A DNA stretch of 58,073 nucleotides. Source: Saprospiraceae bacterium. GTDB taxonomy: Bacteria > Bacteroidota > Bacteroidia > Chitinophagales > Saprospiraceae. The notes beneath the pieces are model-generated. The model was given only the letters and a program-made list of their open reading frames with translations, searched no databases and was not told the origin of the DNA. The stretch spans positions 1 through 58,073 of the forward strand of contig JAIPBL010000035.1 of the NCBI GenBank assembly GCA_021739645.1, in the 5' to 3' direction. Of this stretch, positions 4,333 through 50,686 are shown in pieces. A program made the translations under genes and the position numbers. Position 1 is the first letter of the stretch. Each line of letters opens with the position of its first letter.

Positions 4333-6477
4333 ATGACACAAGTAGAACATTTTCATTACGACAATACCATTGTCAAAAAATTCGCCTACGCTACCCTGCT
4401 TTGGGGCATCGTTGGGATGACGGTTGGCCTTTGGATAGCGCTGGAACTGGTGTACCCGGCCCTCAACCTTGATGTGCCTTGGCTATCTTTTGGTAGGCTG
4501 AGGCCGCTTCACACCAACGCCGTCATTTTTGCCTTTGTGGGTAACGGAATTTTCATGGGCGTTTACTATTCGCTGCAGCGGTTGATGAAGGCCCGCATGT
4601 TCAGCGATATGTTGAGCAATATCCACTTTTGGGGCTGGCAGCTCATCATCGTGAGCGCATCGCTGACCCTGCCATTTGGCTTCACCTCCAGCGGAGAGTA
4701 CGCTGAGTTGGTTTGGCCGATTGATATCGCCATCACCCTGATTTGGGTAGTTTTCGGCATCAACATGTTCGGCACCATCATCAAGCGCCGGGAGGAGCAC
4801 CTCTACGTGGCCGTCTGGTTTTATATCGCCACTTGGGTTACCGTCGCCGTGCTGCACATCGTGCGCAACCTCGAAATCCCGACCTCCATGCTGCACAGCT
4901 ATGGCATCTTCGCAGGTGTGCAGGAGGCACTGGTGCAGTGGTGGTACGGCCACAACGCAGTGGCATTCTTCCTTACTACGCCGTACCTCGGCCTGATGTA
5001 CTACTTTTTGCCGAAGGCAGCCAACCGTCCGGTGTTCAGCTATCGGTTGTCCATCGTACACTTCTGGGCGCTCATCTTCATCTACATCTGGGCTGGGCCG
5101 CACCACTTGCTCTATACCTCGTTGCCTGACTGGGCTCAGTCGCTGGGCATGGTGTTCTCACTGATGCTCATTGCCCCATCTTGGGGCGGTATGCTCAACG
5201 GCCTGCTCACGCTGCGTGGCGCTTGGGACCGGGTGCGGGAAGACCCCGTGCTCAAGTTCATGGTGGTGGCCGTGACGGCTTACGGTATGTCCACTTTCGA
5301 GGGCCCGATGATGTCCATCAAGTCCTTCAACGCTATCACACACTATTCCGACTGGACAATAGCGCACGTACATATCGGTGCGCTCGGCTGGAACGGGATG
5401 CTCACCTTCGGTGTGCTTTACTGGCTGATGCCACGCATTTTTGACACCAAACTTTACTCAACGAAACTGGCGAACACGCACTTCTGGCTCGGCACCTTGG
5501 GCATCATTTTCTACGCAGTGCCGCTTTACTGGGCAGCCATTGTGCAGAACCTGATGTGGCGGGCATTCACGCCGGACGGGTTCCTCATTTACCCCAACTT
5601 TCTGGAAACGGTGACGCAAATCGTACCGATGTACGGCATCCGGGTCATCGGTGGTACGCTGTTCATCACAGGCGTGATAGTCGGAATCCACAATTTGGTG
5701 AAAACAGTGCGCAGTGGCAACCTGATTGCCAATGAGGCAGCATCTGCCCCTGCACTGCCATCGAAGCATGTTGCCGAAGGCAAAGAACACTGGCACCGCT
5801 GGATTGAGCGCAAACCGATGCAGATGCTCGTTTGGAGCCTCGTCGTGGTGCTGATAGGTGGCATGGTCGAAATGTTCCCGATGTGGTGGGTGGACGATAA
5901 CGTACCTAAAATCGCAAGCGTAAAACCATATACCCCGCTCGAATTGCAGGGCCGTGACCTCTATGTCAGGGAAGGCTGCGTCGGCTGCCACTCACAAATG
6001 GTACGGCCATTCCGCTTCGAAACGGAGCGCTACGGCGAGTACTCGAAGAGCGGCGAGTTCATTTATGACCGCCCGTTCCTCTGGGGCAGCAAGCGCACCG
6101 GGCCAGACCTCGCTAGGGAAGGCGTGGGCAAGCTGAAAAAATCGGACAGTTGGCACTACAACCACCTGATTGACCCAACCAGCACATCGCCCGGCTCCAT
6201 CATGCCTGCTTACCCATGGCTGGCCGAGAACGACCTTGACCTTTCTTCCACCGCATCAAAAATCAAGGTACTGAGCCAACTGGGCACTCCTTATGTTTCG
6301 GGATACGAGACCATCGCTAACGAGGACCTCGCTGCTCAGGCAGGGCGCATCGCCAAGAGCTTGAAAACAGAAGGCGTAGAGCAAGCTGGCGTCGAGACAA
6401 AGGAAATTGTAGCTGTCATCGCCTACCTCCAGCGCCTAGGTGTGGACATCACGGTGCAGGACCAGACAGATAAATAG
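4333..6477 (+). CDS. ccoNO: cbb3 cytochrome c oxidase, fused subunits I and II (CcoNO)
   Basis: 714 residues; catalytic core of the cbb3 proton-pumping oxidase in the inner membrane. Residues 1 to about 480 are the 12-helix heme-copper subunit CcoN, with the histidine ligand segments RPLHTNAVIF, WWYGHNAVAFF, AGPHHLLYT and TIAHVHIGALGWNG. From about residue 495 comes CcoO: one membrane helix (LVWSLVVVLIGGMVEMFP), then a periplasmic c-type heme site CVGCH at residues 549-553 followed by SQMVRPFRFETERYGEYS, the CcoO signature. The N-O fusion is usual in Bacteroidota. The stop codon TAG runs directly into a 7-bp repeat array. Confidence 0.97.
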   Translation: MTQVEHFHYDNTIVKKFAYATLLWGIVGMTVGLWIALELVYPALNLDVPWLSFGRLRPLHTNAVIFAFVGNGIFMGVYYSLQRLMKARMFSDMLSNIHFWGWQLIIVSASLTLPFGFTSSGEYAELVWPIDIAITLIWVVFGINMFGTIIKRREEHLYVAVWFYIATWVTVAVLHIVRNLEIPTSMLHSYGIFAGVQEALVQWWYGHNAVAFFLTTPYLGLMYYFLPKAANRPVFSYRLSIVHFWALIFIYIWAGPHHLLYTSLPDWAQSLGMVFSLMLIAPSWGGMLNGLLTLRGAWDRVREDPVLKFMVVAVTAYGMSTFEGPMMSIKSFNAITHYSDWTIAHVHIGALGWNGMLTFGVLYWLMPRIFDTKLYSTKLANTHFWLGTLGIIFYAVPLYWAAIVQNLMWRAFTPDGFLIYPNFLETVTQIVPMYGIRVIGGTLFITGVIVGIHNLVKTVRSGNLIANEAASAPALPSKHVAEGKEHWHRWIERKPMQMLVWSLVVVLIGGMVEMFPMWWVDDNVPKIASVKPYTPLELQGRDLYVREGCVGCHSQMVRPFRFETERYGEYSKSGEFIYDRPFLWGSKRTGPDLAREGVGKLKKSDSWHYNHLIDPTSTSPGSIMPAYPWLAENDLDLSSTASKIKVLSQLGTPYVSGYETIANEDLAAQAGRIAKSLKTEGVEQAGVETKEIVAVIAYLQRLGVDITVQDQTDK

Positions 6478-6553
6478 TGATTGGTAACTGGTGATTAGTG
6501 ATTGGGGCTACCAATCACCAATCACCAATCACCAATCACCAATCACCAATCAC
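6476..6553 (+). repeat. inverted pair of 7-bp repeat arrays between ccoNO and ccoQ
   Basis: The left arm (6476-6505) has imperfect GTGATTG/GTGATTA units; after a 5-base loop the right arm (6511-6553) has six CCAATCA units. The arms are reverse complements and would form a long hairpin. The array starts on the last bases of the ccoNO stop codon and ends 8 bases before the ccoQ start codon. Confidence 0.85.
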
Positions 6554-10727: not shown

Positions 10728-13349
10728 ATGACCGTCACCGCCAACATGGAAGAATTAAAACCACTCGCCGCAGCGAAGGCGACCTGCTTCCACTGTGGCG
10801 ATGAGTGCCGTGACGAGCGCATTTTTTTCTCCGAAAAAAACTTTTGCTGTGAAGGTTGTAAAACGGTCTATGAAATCCTGAACGCCAGCGACCTCACCGA
10901 TTTTTACAACATCGAAAAAAACGCTGGACTCAGCCTCAAAGGCCGCAAAACCGAGCAGTACGCCTGGCTCGACGACCCCGATGCCGCCGAAAAAGTCCTT
11001 ACTTTCAAGGACGAAAAGCAGTCGAAACTGACGCTGCATTTGCCCCAAATCCATTGTGCCTCGTGCATCTGGCTCCTCGAAAATCTGCACAAACTTTCAC
11101 CAGCCATCTTTTCCACCAAGGTCAACTTCCTCAAGCGGGAAGCCACCATCACCTTCGACCACGAGACGACTTCCCTGCGCAAAGTCGCCGAACTGCTCGC
11201 CAGCATCGGTTACCCGCCTGACCTCAACCTCAACACCTTGGAGGGAACGGCCCGCAAACCCGTCAGCCGTCGGCTGATTTACCAACTTGGTGTGGCCGGG
11301 TTCGCCTTCGGCAATATCATGCTCCTCAGCTTCCCGGAGTACCTCGGCTTACAGGAATCGGAGCAATGGATGCGCCAACTTTTCGGCTGGTTGAACCTTG
11401 TGTTGGCCACTCCCGTGGCGTTCTACTGCGGGCGGGATTACCTCGATTCCGCTTGGGCCACGCTGCGCACCCGACAACTCAGCATTGACGTACCACTGGC
11501 GCTGGGCATCCTCGTGCTGTACTTCCGCAGCGCCTTCGAAATCGCCACGAGTTCAGGTGCTGGCTACATGGACAGCTTGGCCGGGCTGGTATTTTTCCTG
11601 TTAGTCGGCAAATGGTTCCAGCAGATGACCTACCACCGGATTTCGTTCGACCGGGATTACAAGTCGTATTTTCCAGTGGCGGCGACCCGGTTAGTTCGAC
11701 AGTTCGACAGTGGGCAGTTGGCAGTCGAGGACGTGGAAGCAGGCAATGACTGCCCACTGCCAACTGGCGAACTGCAAACTGAGAGTGTTTCGGTAAACAA
11801 ACTCGAACCCGGCGACCGCATCCTGCTTCGCAATGGCGAACTCGTGCCTGCCGATGGTATTTTGAAAAAAGGATTTGCGAAGCTGGACTACAGTTTCGTG
11901 ACGGGCGAGGCGGAACCCGTGGAGCGCCATTCGGGTGAAAAAATCTATGCCGGAGGCCGCCACCTCGGCGACTCCATCGAGCTGCTGCTCACCAAAAAAG
12001 TGAGCCAGAGCTACCTCACCCAGCTTTGGAACGACGACGCATTTCACCAAGAAAAACTGATGGGAACCAGCCGCCTGGCCAACCAGGTCAGCCGCTATTT
12101 CACCGTCATCATCCTCGCTGTCGCCTTCGGAACATTGGCCTACTGGCTCCCACTTGACACCCGAACCGCCTTCAACGCCTTCACGGCAGTGCTAATCATC
12201 GCATGCCCCTGCGCCGCTGCGCTCAACGTGCCGTTCACCCTCGGCAATACCGTTCGCATCCTCGCCCGCCACGGTTTTTACCTCAAAAACACGAACGTGG
12301 TGGAGGCGCTCCGCAAAGTCACGGCAGTGGTTTTTGATAAAACGGGAACGCTCACGGAATCGGGTGGGAGTAGCAACTTGGAGTATGTTGGGGAGCAATT
12401 GAGCGGGGAAGAAATGGCTTGGGTGAAATCGCTTGCGGGCAATTCTTCGCACCCGATTAGCAGGCAAATTGCAGTTGGCAGTTGGCAGTTGGCAGTTGGC
12501 AGTCAGGGACTAGGAACTTCAACCGAAGTTATTGATTTTCAAGAACATACAGGAAAAGGCATTGAGGGTAAATTTGGTGAAAACCACCTCCGAATTGGCT
12601 CGGCTTCGTTTGTGGCTGCTGATAAAAATGCCCCATCCGACGCCACCGTTTTCATCGAAATAAGCGGCGTGACGAAGGGCGGCTGGGTGCTCCGCAACCA
12701 CTACCGCAGCGCCGCTTGGCCTGTCGTGGATTATTTCAAAAGCTGGGGCAAAACCTTCCTCCTCTCCGGCGACAATGAGCGGGAACGGGATTACCTCTCG
12801 CCCAAATTTGCGCAACAACCCAATACCCCAATAACTCAATACCCCAATAACTCAATAACTCAATACCCCAATAACTCAATAACTCAATTCCCCAATAACT
12901 CAATCCATTTCAACCAAAGCCCTCAAGACAAACTCAATTTCATCAAGTCCCAGCAGTCGGAAGGTGACACCGTGCTCATGCTAGGCGATGGCCTGAACGA
13001 CGCCGGGGCGCTCCGTCAAGCTGACGTGGGCATCGTCGTGGCAGAGGATGTGAACAATTTCACCCCGGCCTGCGACGCCGTTTTGGATGCCAAAAAATTC
13101 GCACAACTGCCTGATTTTCTGAATTTTGCAAAGCAAAGTATCAATCTCGTGTATGCCGCTTGGATACTCGCTGCACTGTACAATGTGGTGGGTTTGAGCT
13201 ACGCTATGACCGGCAATTTATCACCCGTAGTAGCCGCCATCCTGATGCCCCTCAGCTCGCTGACGATTGTGGGCTTCGGCATGGCCAGCACGACTTTAAT
13301 GGGCAAGGTGAAGCTGCACGACGCCCCAATCGTAAATCCAAAATCGTAA
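10728..13349 (+). CDS. ccoI: copper-translocating P-type ATPase CcoI (FixI)
   Basis: 873 residues. The N-terminus has a four-cysteine domain (CFHCGDEC, CCEGC) and an HMA domain with IHCASCIW. Membrane helices follow; the ion channel has CPC (IIACPCAAAL), the phosphorylation site is DKTGTLTESGG, and the hinge is MLGDGLNDAGALRQADVG. It moves copper needed by the cbb3 oxidase. Three in-frame repeat insertions lengthen it: about residues 322-352 (an inverted pair of CAGTTGG-like arrays), 582-592 (7-residue repeat AVGSWQL from a 7-bp unit) and 698-726 (8-residue repeat ITQYPNNS from an 8-bp unit). All lie in cytoplasmic parts. The alternative start ATG 10746 is possible. Confidence 0.93.
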   Translation: MTVTANMEELKPLAAAKATCFHCGDECRDERIFFSEKNFCCEGCKTVYEILNASDLTDFYNIEKNAGLSLKGRKTEQYAWLDDPDAAEKVLTFKDEKQSKLTLHLPQIHCASCIWLLENLHKLSPAIFSTKVNFLKREATITFDHETTSLRKVAELLASIGYPPDLNLNTLEGTARKPVSRRLIYQLGVAGFAFGNIMLLSFPEYLGLQESEQWMRQLFGWLNLVLATPVAFYCGRDYLDSAWATLRTRQLSIDVPLALGILVLYFRSAFEIATSSGAGYMDSLAGLVFFLLVGKWFQQMTYHRISFDRDYKSYFPVAATRLVRQFDSGQLAVEDVEAGNDCPLPTGELQTESVSVNKLEPGDRILLRNGELVPADGILKKGFAKLDYSFVTGEAEPVERHSGEKIYAGGRHLGDSIELLLTKKVSQSYLTQLWNDDAFHQEKLMGTSRLANQVSRYFTVIILAVAFGTLAYWLPLDTRTAFNAFTAVLIIACPCAAALNVPFTLGNTVRILARHGFYLKNTNVVEALRKVTAVVFDKTGTLTESGGSSNLEYVGEQLSGEEMAWVKSLAGNSSHPISRQIAVGSWQLAVGSQGLGTSTEVIDFQEHTGKGIEGKFGENHLRIGSASFVAADKNAPSDATVFIEISGVTKGGWVLRNHYRSAAWPVVDYFKSWGKTFLLSGDNERERDYLSPKFAQQPNTPITQYPNNSITQYPNNSITQFPNNSIHFNQSPQDKLNFIKSQQSEGDTVLMLGDGLNDAGALRQADVGIVVAEDVNNFTPACDAVLDAKKFAQLPDFLNFAKQSINLVYAAWILAALYNVVGLSYAMTGNLSPVVAAILMPLSSLTIVGFGMASTTLMGKVKLHDAPIVNPKS
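11693..11781 (+). repeat. inverted pair of 7-bp arrays inside ccoI
   Basis: The left arm (11693-11726) has CGACAGT and CAGTTGG-like units; the right arm (11748-11781) is its imperfect reverse complement with CACTGCCAACTG. The frame stays open. Only CcoI shows such sequence between its HMA/transmembrane part and the actuator domain. Confidence 0.7.
12471..12504 (+). repeat. 7-bp tandem repeat (GCAGTTG) inside ccoI
   Basis: Nearly five units of GCAGTTG. Because 21 bases make 7 codons the array encodes the 7-residue repeat AVGSWQL. It falls in the nucleotide-binding domain. Confidence 0.8.
12821..12906 (+). repeat. 8-bp tandem repeat (CAATAACT/CAATACCC) inside ccoI
   Basis: Ten and a half 8-bp units. 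Twenty-four bases make 8 codons, giving the peptide repeat ITQYPNNS. It lies just before the QSPQDKLNFIK segment that leads to the GDGLND hinge. Confidence 0.85.
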
Positions 13350-13360
13350 ATCCAAAATCG
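13328..13360 (+). repeat. short repeat at the ccoI/safE junction
   Basis: Two and a half copies of a 14-base unit built of AATCGTA and AATCCAA heptamers. It encodes the last codons of ccoI, covers its stop, and ends 4 bases before the next start codon. Confidence 0.7.
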
Positions 13361-44969: not shown

Positions 44970-44976
44970 TTTCAAA

Positions 44977-45050
44977 ATGATGAATGGTGAATGGTGGAAT
45001 GATGAATCAATCCCCATTCATCATTCATCATTGAACCATTCATCATTCAT
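44977..45050 (+). repeat. inverted pair of 7-bp arrays between DUF4292 and envC genes
   Basis: Left arm 44977-45007 has GATGAAT/GGTGAAT units; right arm 45015-45050 has ATTCATC units. They are reverse complements with about a 7-base loop. The array starts 7 bases after the DUF4292 stop, and its last bases overlap the envC start codon. Confidence 0.85.
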
Positions 45051-46296
45051 GAAAGCCCATTCAAGAAAAATATTCCTACTGCTCGTCGCCCTGCTCCTCG
45101 CAATGGGTACGGGCATTGCGCAGCAAAGCCGAAAGGAACTGGAGGACAAGCGCAAAAGGCTGCTAAAGGACATCGAGCAAACCTCCAGCCTGCTAAAGCA
45201 GACCAAACAAGACAAGGCGGCCACCCTCTCCCGCTACGTGACGCTGCAGAAACAAATCAGCAAGCGCCAACAACTCGTGGAGACACTGCAAAAGGAAATG
45301 CAGTTCCTGCTGGAAAATGTGGACCGCACCGCCACGGTGGTACTCGCCCTCAACGACGACACCGAGCGGCTCAAAGCGGAGTACATCAAAATCGCCCGAC
45401 ATGCCTACCGCCAGCGGCTCATGCACAGCGATTGGCTTTTCTTGCTGTCCGCCAAAAGCTTCAACGATGCCTTCCGGCGCTGGCAGTACCTGCGGCAGTA
45501 CGACCGCTACCGCCAACGGCAAGGCCGACTCATACTCGACACCCAGCAGACGCTGCTCGACAAGATTAAGAACCTCGAAGACCGCAAGCGGGAAAAGGAA
45601 AATTTATTGGGTGCGGAGAAACGCCAGTCGTTGATGCTTGGACTCGAAATGCAAGCAAAGAACCGACTTTTGGATGACCTCAAAGGCGATGAAGCCCGTC
45701 TGGCGCATGACCTTGAAGGAAAGCAGGCGGCAGCCAGCAAGTTGAACAAGGCCATCGAAAAAGTGATCCGGGACGAAATGGAACGGATACGCCGGGAAGA
45801 GCGTTCGGCTGCTGCCGCTGCATCGGCCACGACCCCAGGCAAGACGGCATCGCCCAGGCCAACACCGGAGGTTAGCAACCTCTCGAACGACTTCAACAAA
45901 AACCAAGGCAATCTGCCATGGCCAGTGAGAAACGGCATCATTACCGGCCATTTTGGACGCCAACAGCATCCAACTATCGCCAACATCGAAATCGTGAACA
46001 ACGGGATTGACATACAAACTGACCAAGGTGCCCAAGTGCGCTCGGTCTTTGAAGGTACGGTAGTGGGCACTCAGTTCATCCCTGGTTTCGATTATATGGT
46101 CATCTTGCAGCATGGCAGCTACTACACCGTTTACTCCAACCTGGAAGAGGTGAGTGTAAAAAAAGGCGACAAATTGATGATCGGCCAAAGCCTCGGCAAA
46201 GTCAGCACCGACCAAAAGACCGACACCTCTGCGGTGCATTTTGAAATTTGGAAAGAAAAAACAAGGCTCAACCCACAGGATTGGGTCAGAAAATGA
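45049..46296 (+). CDS. EnvC-like murein hydrolase activator, degenerate LytM domain
   Basis: 415 residues from ATG 45049; an earlier frame start at 44977 would translate the repeat array. Signal peptide (KIFLLLVALLLAMGTGIAQQ), a long coiled coil (about 25-270: RKELEDKRKRLLKDIEQTSSLLKQTKQDK onward), an Ala/Pro linker and a C-terminal LytM/M23 domain. The domain keeps the fold (GIITGHFGRQQHP, NNGIDIQTDQGAQVRSVFEGTVV, AVHFEIW), but the zinc His before GID is Asn and the HYSNL His is Val-Tyr, so it should not bind zinc. This is the EnvC pattern of an amidase activator in cell division. Confidence 0.87.
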   Translation: MKAHSRKIFLLLVALLLAMGTGIAQQSRKELEDKRKRLLKDIEQTSSLLKQTKQDKAATLSRYVTLQKQISKRQQLVETLQKEMQFLLENVDRTATVVLALNDDTERLKAEYIKIARHAYRQRLMHSDWLFLLSAKSFNDAFRRWQYLRQYDRYRQRQGRLILDTQQTLLDKIKNLEDRKREKENLLGAEKRQSLMLGLEMQAKNRLLDDLKGDEARLAHDLEGKQAAASKLNKAIEKVIRDEMERIRREERSAAAAASATTPGKTASPRPTPEVSNLSNDFNKNQGNLPWPVRNGIITGHFGRQQHPTIANIEIVNNGIDIQTDQGAQVRSVFEGTVVGTQFIPGFDYMVILQHGSYYTVYSNLEEVSVKKGDKLMIGQSLGKVSTDQKTDTSAVHFEIWKEKTRLNPQDWVRK

Positions 46297-46316
46297 AAGG
46301 ATTGAAGGATTGAAGG
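46296..46316 (+). repeat. left GGATTGAA array of the S23 cassette
   Basis: Two and a half GGATTGAA units, beginning on the last base of the envC stop codon. The reverse complement array (TTCAATCC units) lies at 46740-46775. Confidence 0.8.
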
Positions 46317-46343
46317 TGGGACACATACCTAACAACACATACT

Positions 46344-46733
46344 ATGGAAAAACCGACTTTTAAATCAAAGGAAGAATTCATTGCTTGGTTTCAAAATAAG
46401 ACGAAGCAATTTGCAATAGACGTGATTAAATTTTGTAGAACATTTCCCAACGACCAAGCGGCAAGAGTTATTTCTTATCAAATCATAAAATCAGCAACCT
46501 CAGTAGCGGCCAATTACCGAGCAGCTTGCAGGGGTCGGTCACAAGCCGAATTTTTTTCAAAAATTTGCATCGTGGTGGAAGAGGCAGATGAATCTGTATT
46601 TTGGCTCGAAATGATTGAAGGCGCTCAATTCAAGATAGATGTTGATGAATTAAAACGACTAAAACATGAGTCTGATGAATTACTAGCCATCTCCTCCAAA
46701 GCCAAAGGAACGTCAGGCGGAAAATCCTCCTGA
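46344..46733 (+). CDS. S23-type four-helix-bundle protein (23S rRNA intervening-sequence family)
   Basis: 129 residues, wholly helical: FKSKEEFIAWFQNKTKQFAIDVIKFCRTFP, AARVISYQIIKSATSVAANYRAACRGRSQAEFFSKICIVVEEADESVFWLEM and ELKRLKHESDELLAISSKAK. The I-x-SATSVAANYREA-type core and EADESxFWLEM are the family signature. Members are coded in intervening sequences of some 23S rRNA genes and, as Avd, in diversity-generating retroelements; they bind nucleic acid. Here the gene is alone between envC and hflX, boxed by inverted GGATTGAA arrays. Confidence 0.9.
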   Translation: MEKPTFKSKEEFIAWFQNKTKQFAIDVIKFCRTFPNDQAARVISYQIIKSATSVAANYRAACRGRSQAEFFSKICIVVEEADESVFWLEMIEGAQFKIDVDELKRLKHESDELLAISSKAKGTSGGKSS

Positions 46734-46739
46734 CCCCAT

Positions 46740-46775
46740 ATTCAATCCTTCAATCCTTCAAACCTTCAATCCTTT
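46740..46775 (+). repeat. right TTCAATCC array of the S23 cassette
   Basis: Four imperfect TTCAATCC units ending directly at the ATG of hflX (46776). With the 46296-46316 array it forms an inverted pair around the four-helix-bundle gene. Confidence 0.8.
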
Positions 46776-47990
46776 ATGAATAAAGAGTGGAACTTAAATA
46801 CGAACCAAGCCAAAGGGCTTAAAGAAGAAACTGAATACGCCGTTTTGGTCGGCGTGATATACGGTATGCAGACCGAGGAACAAGTAGAAGAATACCTGAA
46901 CGAACTGGAGTTCCTGGCGCTCACTGCCGGGGCACAGTCCATCCGCAGGTACGTCCAGCGCCTGCCCAATCCGCACCCCCGCACCTTCATCGGTACCGGC
47001 AAATTGGACGAAATCAAAAAATACGTTGACCTGCACGAGGAGGTCAACATGGTCATTTTCGACGACGACCTCAGCGGCAAACAGGTATCGGCGCTGGAAG
47101 CGGAGCTGAAGGTGAAAATCGTGGACCGAAGCTCGCTCATCCTCGACATCTTTGCCCGAAGGGCACAAACCGCTCAGGCTAAAACTCAGGTGGAACTTGC
47201 GCAGCTCCAGTACCTGCTCCCCCGCCTCCGGGGCCTCTGGACGCACTTGGAGCGCCAGCGGGGCGGCATCGGGATGCGGGGACCCGGTGAGAAGGAAATC
47301 GAGACTGACCGCCGTATCGTTCGGGACAAGATTGCCATCCTGAAAAAACAGCTAGAAAAGATTGACAAACAAGCCACTACACAGCGGAAGACCCGTGGCC
47401 AGCTCATCCGGGTATCGCTGGTGGGCTACACGAACGTCGGCAAGAGCACGCTGATGAACGTGCTGAGCAAGTCGGAGGTTTTTGCCGAAAACAAGCTCTT
47501 CGCCACGTTGGACACGACGGTGCGAAAGGTCGTGCTGGAGAGCGTGCCATTCCTGCTTTCCGACACGGTTGGCTTCATCCGAAAGCTGCCGCACCACCTC
47601 GTGGAGAGCTTCAAATCCACCCTGGACGAGGTGCGGGAGAGCGACATCCTATTGCACGTGGTGGACGTCGGCCATGCACATTACGAAGACCATATCGCCT
47701 CCGTGAACGAGACCCTGAGCGAACTCGGTGCCCGCGACAAGCCCACCCTGATGGTCTTCAACAAAATTGACATTTACCGGGACAAAAACTTCGACGCCCT
47801 GCTGGATGGTGAAATCAAAAAGGAAATAGAGGGGGAACTGCTGTCCAACCTAAAAAACCAATACGAACACGACTGCATCTTCATCTCCGCCGCCAATAAG
47901 GAAGGCATCGAACAACTTCGTGAAATGTTGGTAACGATGGTGAAGCGGGAGTACCAGATTCGATACCCGCATGAGGTGCGGAATTGGTGA
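46776..47990 (+). CDS. hflX: GTPase HflX
   Basis: 404 residues. An N-terminal HflX domain (EYAVLVGVIYG to RGIGMRGPGEKEIETDRR, with GTGKLDEIK and DRSSLILDIFARRAQTAQAKTQVELAQLQYLLPRL) precedes the G domain: G1 GYTNVGKST at 217-225, G3 DTVGFIRKLP, G4 NKID, G5 ISAANKEG. HflX binds ribosomes and can split stalled or stress-damaged 70S particles. Its ATG directly follows the right repeat array of the S23 cassette, so no normal leader separates them. Confidence 0.96.
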   Translation: MNKEWNLNTNQAKGLKEETEYAVLVGVIYGMQTEEQVEEYLNELEFLALTAGAQSIRRYVQRLPNPHPRTFIGTGKLDEIKKYVDLHEEVNMVIFDDDLSGKQVSALEAELKVKIVDRSSLILDIFARRAQTAQAKTQVELAQLQYLLPRLRGLWTHLERQRGGIGMRGPGEKEIETDRRIVRDKIAILKKQLEKIDKQATTQRKTRGQLIRVSLVGYTNVGKSTLMNVLSKSEVFAENKLFATLDTTVRKVVLESVPFLLSDTVGFIRKLPHHLVESFKSTLDEVRESDILLHVVDVGHAHYEDHIASVNETLSELGARDKPTLMVFNKIDIYRDKNFDALLDGEIKKEIEGELLSNLKNQYEHDCIFISAANKEGIEQLREMLVTMVKREYQIRYPHEVRNW

Positions 47991-50601: not shown

Positions 50602-50686
50602 AGGTATGAGGTATTGAGGTATGTGGTATGCGGGGACATGGCAGCTTGGAATTGCATACCTCATACCTTCATACCTCATACCTCAA
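50602..50686. repeat. inverted pair of 7-8-bp arrays between birA and cinA
   Basis: The left arm (50602-50632) has GGTATGA/GGTATTGA units and the right arm (50653-50686) has CATACCT units in reverse complement, with a loop of about 20 bases. The right arm encodes the last residues of BirA (LRYEV) and its stop; the left arm ends 3 bases from the cinA start. Confidence 0.85.

Follow-up and report, generated by a model that had tools for sequence, protein, structure and literature searches.

Intervening sequences (IVSs) of 23S rRNA are the closest described setting of S23 genes: an excerpt of PMC4990558 reports a 28-bp stem and an S23 open reading frame (ORF) in helix 45, and states that S23 proteins have no known function. 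Genes named 23S_rRNA_IVP also occur in cas loci, and the passages of PMC3936711 that deal with them discuss them as a function found there and note a GxxRxxxSxxxNxxE motif for the S23 family. Regarding dispersed hairpins, REP/RAYT systems, as portrayed in an extract of PMC3733652, comprise many intergenic hairpins, with several types in one genome, a protein gene that lies between its repeats, and copies inside genes. Finally, arrays of heptamers such as TAACTGA are reported from Beggiatoaceae, Cyanobacteria and some Bacteroidetes (PMC4679880, in extract). In the literature outside subscription, no title or abstract among the matches listed combined S23 genes with flanking arrays of short units. 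The locus described here, together with relatives that in several phyla mostly lie in similar hairpins whose words depend on the type of S23 gene, suggests a spreading DNA element of a kind not yet described.

An S23 gene between inverted arrays

The window, that is, the whole analysed stretch of 58,073 nucleotides, belongs to a Saprospiraceae bacterium (assembly GCA_021739645.1, contig JAIPBL010000035.1). Between the envC ORF, which ends with a TGA at 46294–46296, and hflX, which starts with an ATG at 46776, two arrays and the S23 gene located between them occupy the whole gap (Table 1). A sequence-only reading had described at this place a four-helix-bundle S23 gene boxed by inverted octamer arrays, in a cassette spanning from the envC stop to the hflX ATG, and this description was confirmed. 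The arms are 92–95% complementary across 21–24 nt and pair with each other in RNA folding (z −3.2, with 0 of 100 shuffles equally stable). A two-unit pattern yields four partly overlapping matches in the window (at most two mismatches) vs a shuffle mean of 0.01, and a pattern with a 4-nt gap between the units yields none, because the units abut.

Table 1. Arrays and S23 gene located in the window
Feature	Position	Strand	Remark
Gene-free inverted array, GATTGGT type (as S23 gene L005)	6475–6553		
Inverted AGTTGGC-type array	11691–11780		In frame within the P-type ATPase coding sequence; common to G003
One-armed AGTTGGC array	12471–12503	+	In frame inside the same ATPase gene
Gene-free inverted array, AATGATG / CATTCAT, loop 8	44976–45050		5' of envC
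Left array, 2.5 units of GGATTGAA (AAGGATTG)	46297–46316	+	Directly abuts the envC stop
S23 / four helix bundle gene, 129 aa	46344–46733	+	ORF and profile matches
Right array, 4.2 units of TTCAATCC (= GGATTGAA on the minus strand)	46741–46774	-	1 nt short of the hflX ATG
Gene-free inverted array, AGGTATG / CATACCT, loop 25	50602–50685		Unit type of S23 gene L003

The encoded protein matches PF05635 with 46 bits (cut-off 33.8) and TIGR02436 with 75.2 bits (cut-off 24), and its sequence also matches the solved chain 2rld (E 1.3e-13), an entry of five chains listed as an uncharacterized protein. In 150 S23 domains, conservation is highest at four columns, E, Q, S and N, in line with the GxxRxxxSxxxNxxE motif, and judging by sequence no active site can be named. 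We know of no catalytic motif in the small S23 fold, and no partner gene of S23 was found. The pentamer ATACT stands immediately 5' of the ATG in five S23 genes, namely, that of the window (46339–46343), L001, L002, L003 and L011.

Inverted arms at S23 genes

The source genome contains 13 S23 genes. The expectation that its other S23 genes would also be flanked by inverted arrays was borne out, with inverted arms at 13/13 genes at the threshold used and at 11/13 at a stricter one, an arm score of 17 at L013 being borderline. A wider arm test took as input 162 loci (L001–L122 and L153–L192), 155 of which yielded 162 S23 ORFs once these had been filtered by the lengths of domain and flank and duplicates had been removed; where a locus contains an internal stop and both halves pass, it may count twice. 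In this non-random sample, chosen by S23 similarity and in part by similarity to the window protein, 112 of the 162 ORFs (mostly from Bacteroidota) score at least 16 for inverted arms, and 50 fall below that threshold; the sequence-only reading had named other S23 genes lacking arrays as a refuting observation. Controls reached the threshold in 4.1% of 3216 swapped pairs, 28/162 cases in direct orientation and 3/361 shifted windows. An earlier run of the test had given 85/130 ORF rows at the threshold. The inverted arms are mostly arrays of 7–8-nt units, the period being 8 in 48 of the 112 arms, 7 in 24, 14 or 15 in 17, 6 or 9 in 4, and unclear in 19.

In four cases (L004, L010, L013 and L124) the S23 gene has an internal stop, a truncation or a frameshift and the flanking arms are still present, as expected for decaying copies of an element. 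At L012 (1480–2019) the S23 frame continues through the right array and beyond the start of fabD, as though it no longer had a stop of its own.

Thirteen further S23 matches came from plasmid records and one, a weak one, from phage records. Arms at the threshold (at least 16) are present at 9 of the 12 loci tested (11 of the 13 plasmid loci and the phage locus; Cyanobacteriota, Chloroflexota, Spirochaetota). These include Dolichospermum (TAATTCG units), Nostoc (GAAGTCG), one of two Chlorohelix loci and Treponema; Bernardetia, the second Chlorohelix locus and the phage locus are below it. Several of the 12 loci also have strong direct repeats, and seven adjoin helicase, methylase, DUF1156/Swt1, DISARM or CRISPR genes. 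Of the plasmid S23 genes whose arms reach the threshold, five (L268, L270, L271, L273 and L278) are found beside DISARM drmD, between DUF1156 and Swt1-like genes, or beside cas1.

Gene-free arrays and strand polarity

Arrays were collected from a genome sample of 780,393 bases in 41 stretches (~13% of the genome), which is non-random because it was drawn from the S23-bearing contigs and the window. It contains 240 arrays of 6–10-nt units, part of them within coding sequence. Adjacent arrays of the same unit are inverted in 45 pairs and direct in 11, and the loops between paired arrays are mostly either short or ~420–540 nt with S23 inside, with some of intermediate length and loops of 614–807 nt at the multi-array L002 locus. 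The empty inverted arrays that had been pointed out elsewhere in the window are real (44976–45050 and 50602–50685), and 26 gene-free hairpins (loop of at most 80 bp) are present in the sample. Their loops, of 1–75 nt, are mostly dissimilar by eye, except for two loop pairs of the same unit type that resemble each other (L201; L205 and L211).

The envC ORF as called mechanically opens with a translated gene-free hairpin (44977–45050), and the true start of envC is probably the ATG at 45049. The gene at 10728–13349, which we take to encode a P-type ATPase, carries a further in-frame octamer array (12813–12904) that is longer than that of G003, and its stop codon lies in an array at 13328–13360.

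The arms show a marked polarity. G outnumbers C in the 5' arm at 109 of the 112 S23 loci, in all 21 protein clusters (<40% identity) and in all 26 gene-free hairpins, compared with a ratio of 581 to 406 in the other inverted repeats of the sample. Stop codons in 218 arms number 958 when read inwards, vs 405 outwards; composition shuffles give 764 (sd 18) in the inward direction, and some arrays at gene ends contain the stop codon of the upstream gene. The polarity may have its source in binding, in synthesis or in selection for stops. Mismatches in the arms that are compatible with G-U pairing show no excess (117 vs 103 non-compatible; 32 loci vs 39). Selection on the arms at the RNA level is thus unsupported by these counts.

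Unit words and resident S23 types

The unit word differs from one S23 gene to another: GGATTGAA in the window, GATTGCG at L011 and L012, AGTTTTG at L008 and L010, AGTTGGC at L002 and GATTGGT at L005. Array similarity follows protein identity over 6157 pairs of loci without related flanks (Mantel r 0.569), rising from 0.010 at <20% identity to 0.50 at >85%; none of 1000 permutations reached this correlation, the largest being 0.108. Octamers composed of a fixed half, AATG, and a variable half are found at many relatives of the window protein; in AATGNNNN units a possible mirroring of the variable half was judged by eye.

S23-free arrays also correspond to the S23 types resident in the genome. 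The arms of its own S23 genes (n = 13) match on average 7.4 of 206 S23-free arrays, and those of 21 foreign S23 genes from relatives, each of them <40% identical to all S23 of the genome, match 1.0 (p 5e-5). Fifteen arms of 40–60% identity match 3.8, ten of at least 60% match 7.7, and 53 arms from other Bacteroidota match 1.6. In total, 77 of the 206 arrays match any own type, only one of them the type of the window, and none that of L001. The sequence-only reading had suggested that the empty arrays could be the same structure without a gene, which is supported in that they share units with S23-bearing arrays and needs correction in that there is no fixed unit, the word differing by subtype.

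This correspondence was also followed across 30 genomes, which are related to each other, with identity cuts that were set after the rows had been seen: the GATTGCGG double unit is present in 7/7 genomes with its S23 subtype (at least 54% identity) and in 1/23 others, and the GGATTGAA double unit in 6/6 genomes with the subtype of the window (at least 74% identity) and in 5/24 others. Kinship is a confounding factor for type matching inside the genus. Reversed controls of both double units gave 0 matches in all 30 genomes. The genomes that match GGATTGAA without a matching S23 are G011 (51 matches), G005 (21), G003 (19), G028 (2) and G001 (1), and G003 matches GATTGCGG in the same manner (8). 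In G009, where the S23 is 59% identical to that of the window, the GGATTGAA double unit is absent. A phylum-wide test was weak: an S23 like that of L074 occurs in 19/35 genomes with AATGNNNN arrays vs 115/296 overall (analyst's counts), and the backwards control pattern also matches in 18 genomes. Array-rich genomes including G109, G209, G245, G265 and G324 have no L074-like S23 at E 1e-10; in G265 a different S23 gene is found ~1.3 kb from an AATG array.

Occupancy of the junctions

Among congeners the S23 subtype of the window is found at three different junctions, whose neighbouring genes were named from their translations: envC–hflX in the source genome, G008 and G013 (frameshifted). In G012 and G007 it lies between the genes of lysyl-tRNA synthetase and D-Ala ligase, and in G006 between two genes of ABC transporters. 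The arrays around it in G008 and G013 are of the same kind as in the window; unrelated flanks at this place had been named as a refuting observation.

envC adjoins hflX in 14 of the 30 hflX loci, 13 of them in the genus. Three of these 14 contain S23, five an array hairpin without S23 and one a different short hairpin, and in five no array was seen. The S23-free junctions that had been anticipated in relatives therefore exist (11/14 loci, 10 of them congeners), with the reservation that five of them are array hairpins and not clean sites; S23 may thus have arrived in a hairpin that was already there, or have disappeared from one. The units of these five hairpins differ, with the arms still pairing, so that the unit is not constant between species at this one junction. 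Several of the hairpins have a common TTTGAG-like core, and because of it the drift of one old array is possible.

Similar changes were read by eye at other places. At folE–fabD (12 of 15 loci read), S23 is present only in the source genome; its relatives have hairpin-like arrays of other units (four), partial or one-armed arrays (three, one of them beside another gene) or none (four). The junction 5' of envC has a hairpin with changed units in G003, G008 and G011, the junction at 6475–6553 has a hairpin of another unit in G003, and the source genome and G003 have different arrays at the ATPase gene end. At the junctions compared, the words change while the arms stay complementary.

Discussion

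We consider it somewhat better than an even bet (probability of about 0.55) that the window element belongs to a family of free-standing S23 hairpin elements, the spread of which is driven by the S23 protein or its transcript. In such an element the loop of a long hairpin contains an S23 gene, the arms are made mostly of 7–8-nt unit arrays, and the G-richer strand lies 5' of the loop. Each S23 subtype has particular units, of which the genomes also contain gene-free arrays and hairpins; the protein or its transcript would recognise its unit, act in trans and drive the propagation of S23-bearing elements and gene-free hairpins alike, presumably through a hairpin intermediate and with insertion of the element as one unit. 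The copies would survive mostly at gene ends, where the arrays can bring stop codons. Later the words may change with the arms kept complementary, through arm-to-arm copying, selection for the hairpin, or replacement at the same junction. The reading is backed by the frequency of the layout, the correlation of unit with protein, the S23-free arrays of resident types, the polarity, the three junctions of one subtype and the S23-free envC–hflX sites. Against it speak the 50 S23 ORFs below the arm threshold, the lack of a known catalytic motif or a partner gene, the arrays in genomes that have no matching S23, the absence of the GGATTGAA double unit from G009, the scarcity of S23-free arrays of the window and L001 types, the kinship of the genomes and the weak phylum-wide outcome.

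The main rival takes the hairpin arrays to be host terminators or boundary hairpins that arise and change by slippage and arm copying, and S23 to be a passenger that settles in their loops, as in rRNA helices, and takes the arms along when it moves. We regard this as doubtful, albeit the strongest competitor. It accounts well for the turnover at junctions, that is, the S23-free hairpins with changed units at envC–hflX, folE–fabD, 5' of envC and at 6475–6553, the changed array at the ATPase gene end, and the TTTGAG-like core with the drift that it would allow. In addition, the two arms of a locus show a better match than arms of the same subtype from different loci (24.7 vs 19.1, in 57 of 70), in a comparison where the own arms were preselected, which biases it towards a better own match. 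By itself, however, this rival leaves unexplained that S23-free arrays match the resident S23 subtypes and that such arrays enclose most S23 genes.

An ordinary small transposable element with terminal inverted repeats, mobilised by a transposase encoded elsewhere, with S23 as cargo and gene-free copies as MITE-like internal deletions, would fit the two main loop sizes and the occurrence of one S23 subtype at several sites. It is unlikely, given that the loops of the 26 gene-free hairpins are mostly unlike each other, that the units differ between subtypes, and that no flanking duplication was noticed by eye at the junctions read. The Avd protein of diversity-generating retroelements (DGRs) is related to S23, and this relation, together with partly variable octamers such as AATGNNNN, would suit a reverse transcriptase partner that builds the arrays by templated repeat addition. 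Such a partner is very improbable and seems unneeded, since three array-bearing genomes that are 98–100% complete (G003, G008 and G012, with 7, 8 and 16 S23 genes) gave no match in a search with RVT_1 (PF00078); a general need for a reverse transcriptase is rejected on these grounds, unless the enzyme is divergent or encoded in a missing part of the assemblies. Finally, short tandem arrays are frequent enough in this genome (240 in 780 kb) to bring to mind chance or simple low-complexity intergenic repeats, an explanation that is refuted by the swapped, direct-orientation and shifted controls, is also at odds with the polarity and the correlation between unit and protein, and has practically no likelihood left.

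Returning to the family of S23 hairpin elements, the match between unit and protein suggests, at the sequence level, that the function of S23 is the recognition of a defined short word. It would link the S23 family to many of the short intergenic arrays of these genomes, explain why S23 genes occur inside unrelated operons, including CRISPR and restriction loci, and let annotators recognise such genes as passengers. More tentatively, S23 could be a sequence-specific propagator of a widespread class of dispersed hairpins in several phyla, with each subtype reading a 7–8-nt word of its own and writing or spreading inverted arrays of that word at gene ends, working without a transposase or reverse transcriptase of a known kind, and the IVSs could be copies that landed in rRNA helices.

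Comparison with known systems

Cyanobacterial STRR are short tandem repeats comparable to the arrays described here. The heptamer arrays share with the arrays of this study short tandem units at gene boundaries and a patchy distribution, and differ, as far as the extract of PMC4679880 goes, in being direct repeats with one inverted exception; S23 has 0 occurrences in that text. The 23S_rRNA_IVP genes of cas loci belong to the same protein family and likewise lie among operon genes, and plasmid S23 genes of the present set also adjoin cas1, but the flanking arrays here suggest a passenger element. In contrast to a DGR accessory protein (Avd), which has a reverse transcriptase beside it, the S23 of the window has envC and hflX as its neighbours.

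The likeness to REP/RAYT systems extends to the many hairpins, the several types per genome, the flanked gene and the copies inside genes, and here too gene-free palindromes have the same sequence as those at the gene. The flanked gene, however, encodes a protein of the four helix bundle family (PF05635 / TIGR02436) and not a tyrosine transposase, and the unit words vary, with no fixed GTAG or CGTC tag seen by eye.

The element resembles the 23S rRNA IVS in that a long terminal stem carries an S23 gene in its loop and in that mobility is suspected, and the window copy has its S23 ORF within terminal inverted repeats able to pair as RNA. It lies between the protein genes envC and hflX instead of inside a 23S rRNA gene, its arms are tandem 7–8-nt arrays with subtype-specific units, and it has many gene-free relatives; an Rfam search of the 13 S23 loci found no rRNA family and only a tRNA, in L013. 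The proposal that it is a free-standing relative of the IVS agrees with the protein family and the layout, which are the two features that would speak for a common origin. In our best reading, the S23 hairpin element combines a REP/RAYT-like logic with an rRNA IVS-like layout and is a member of neither group.
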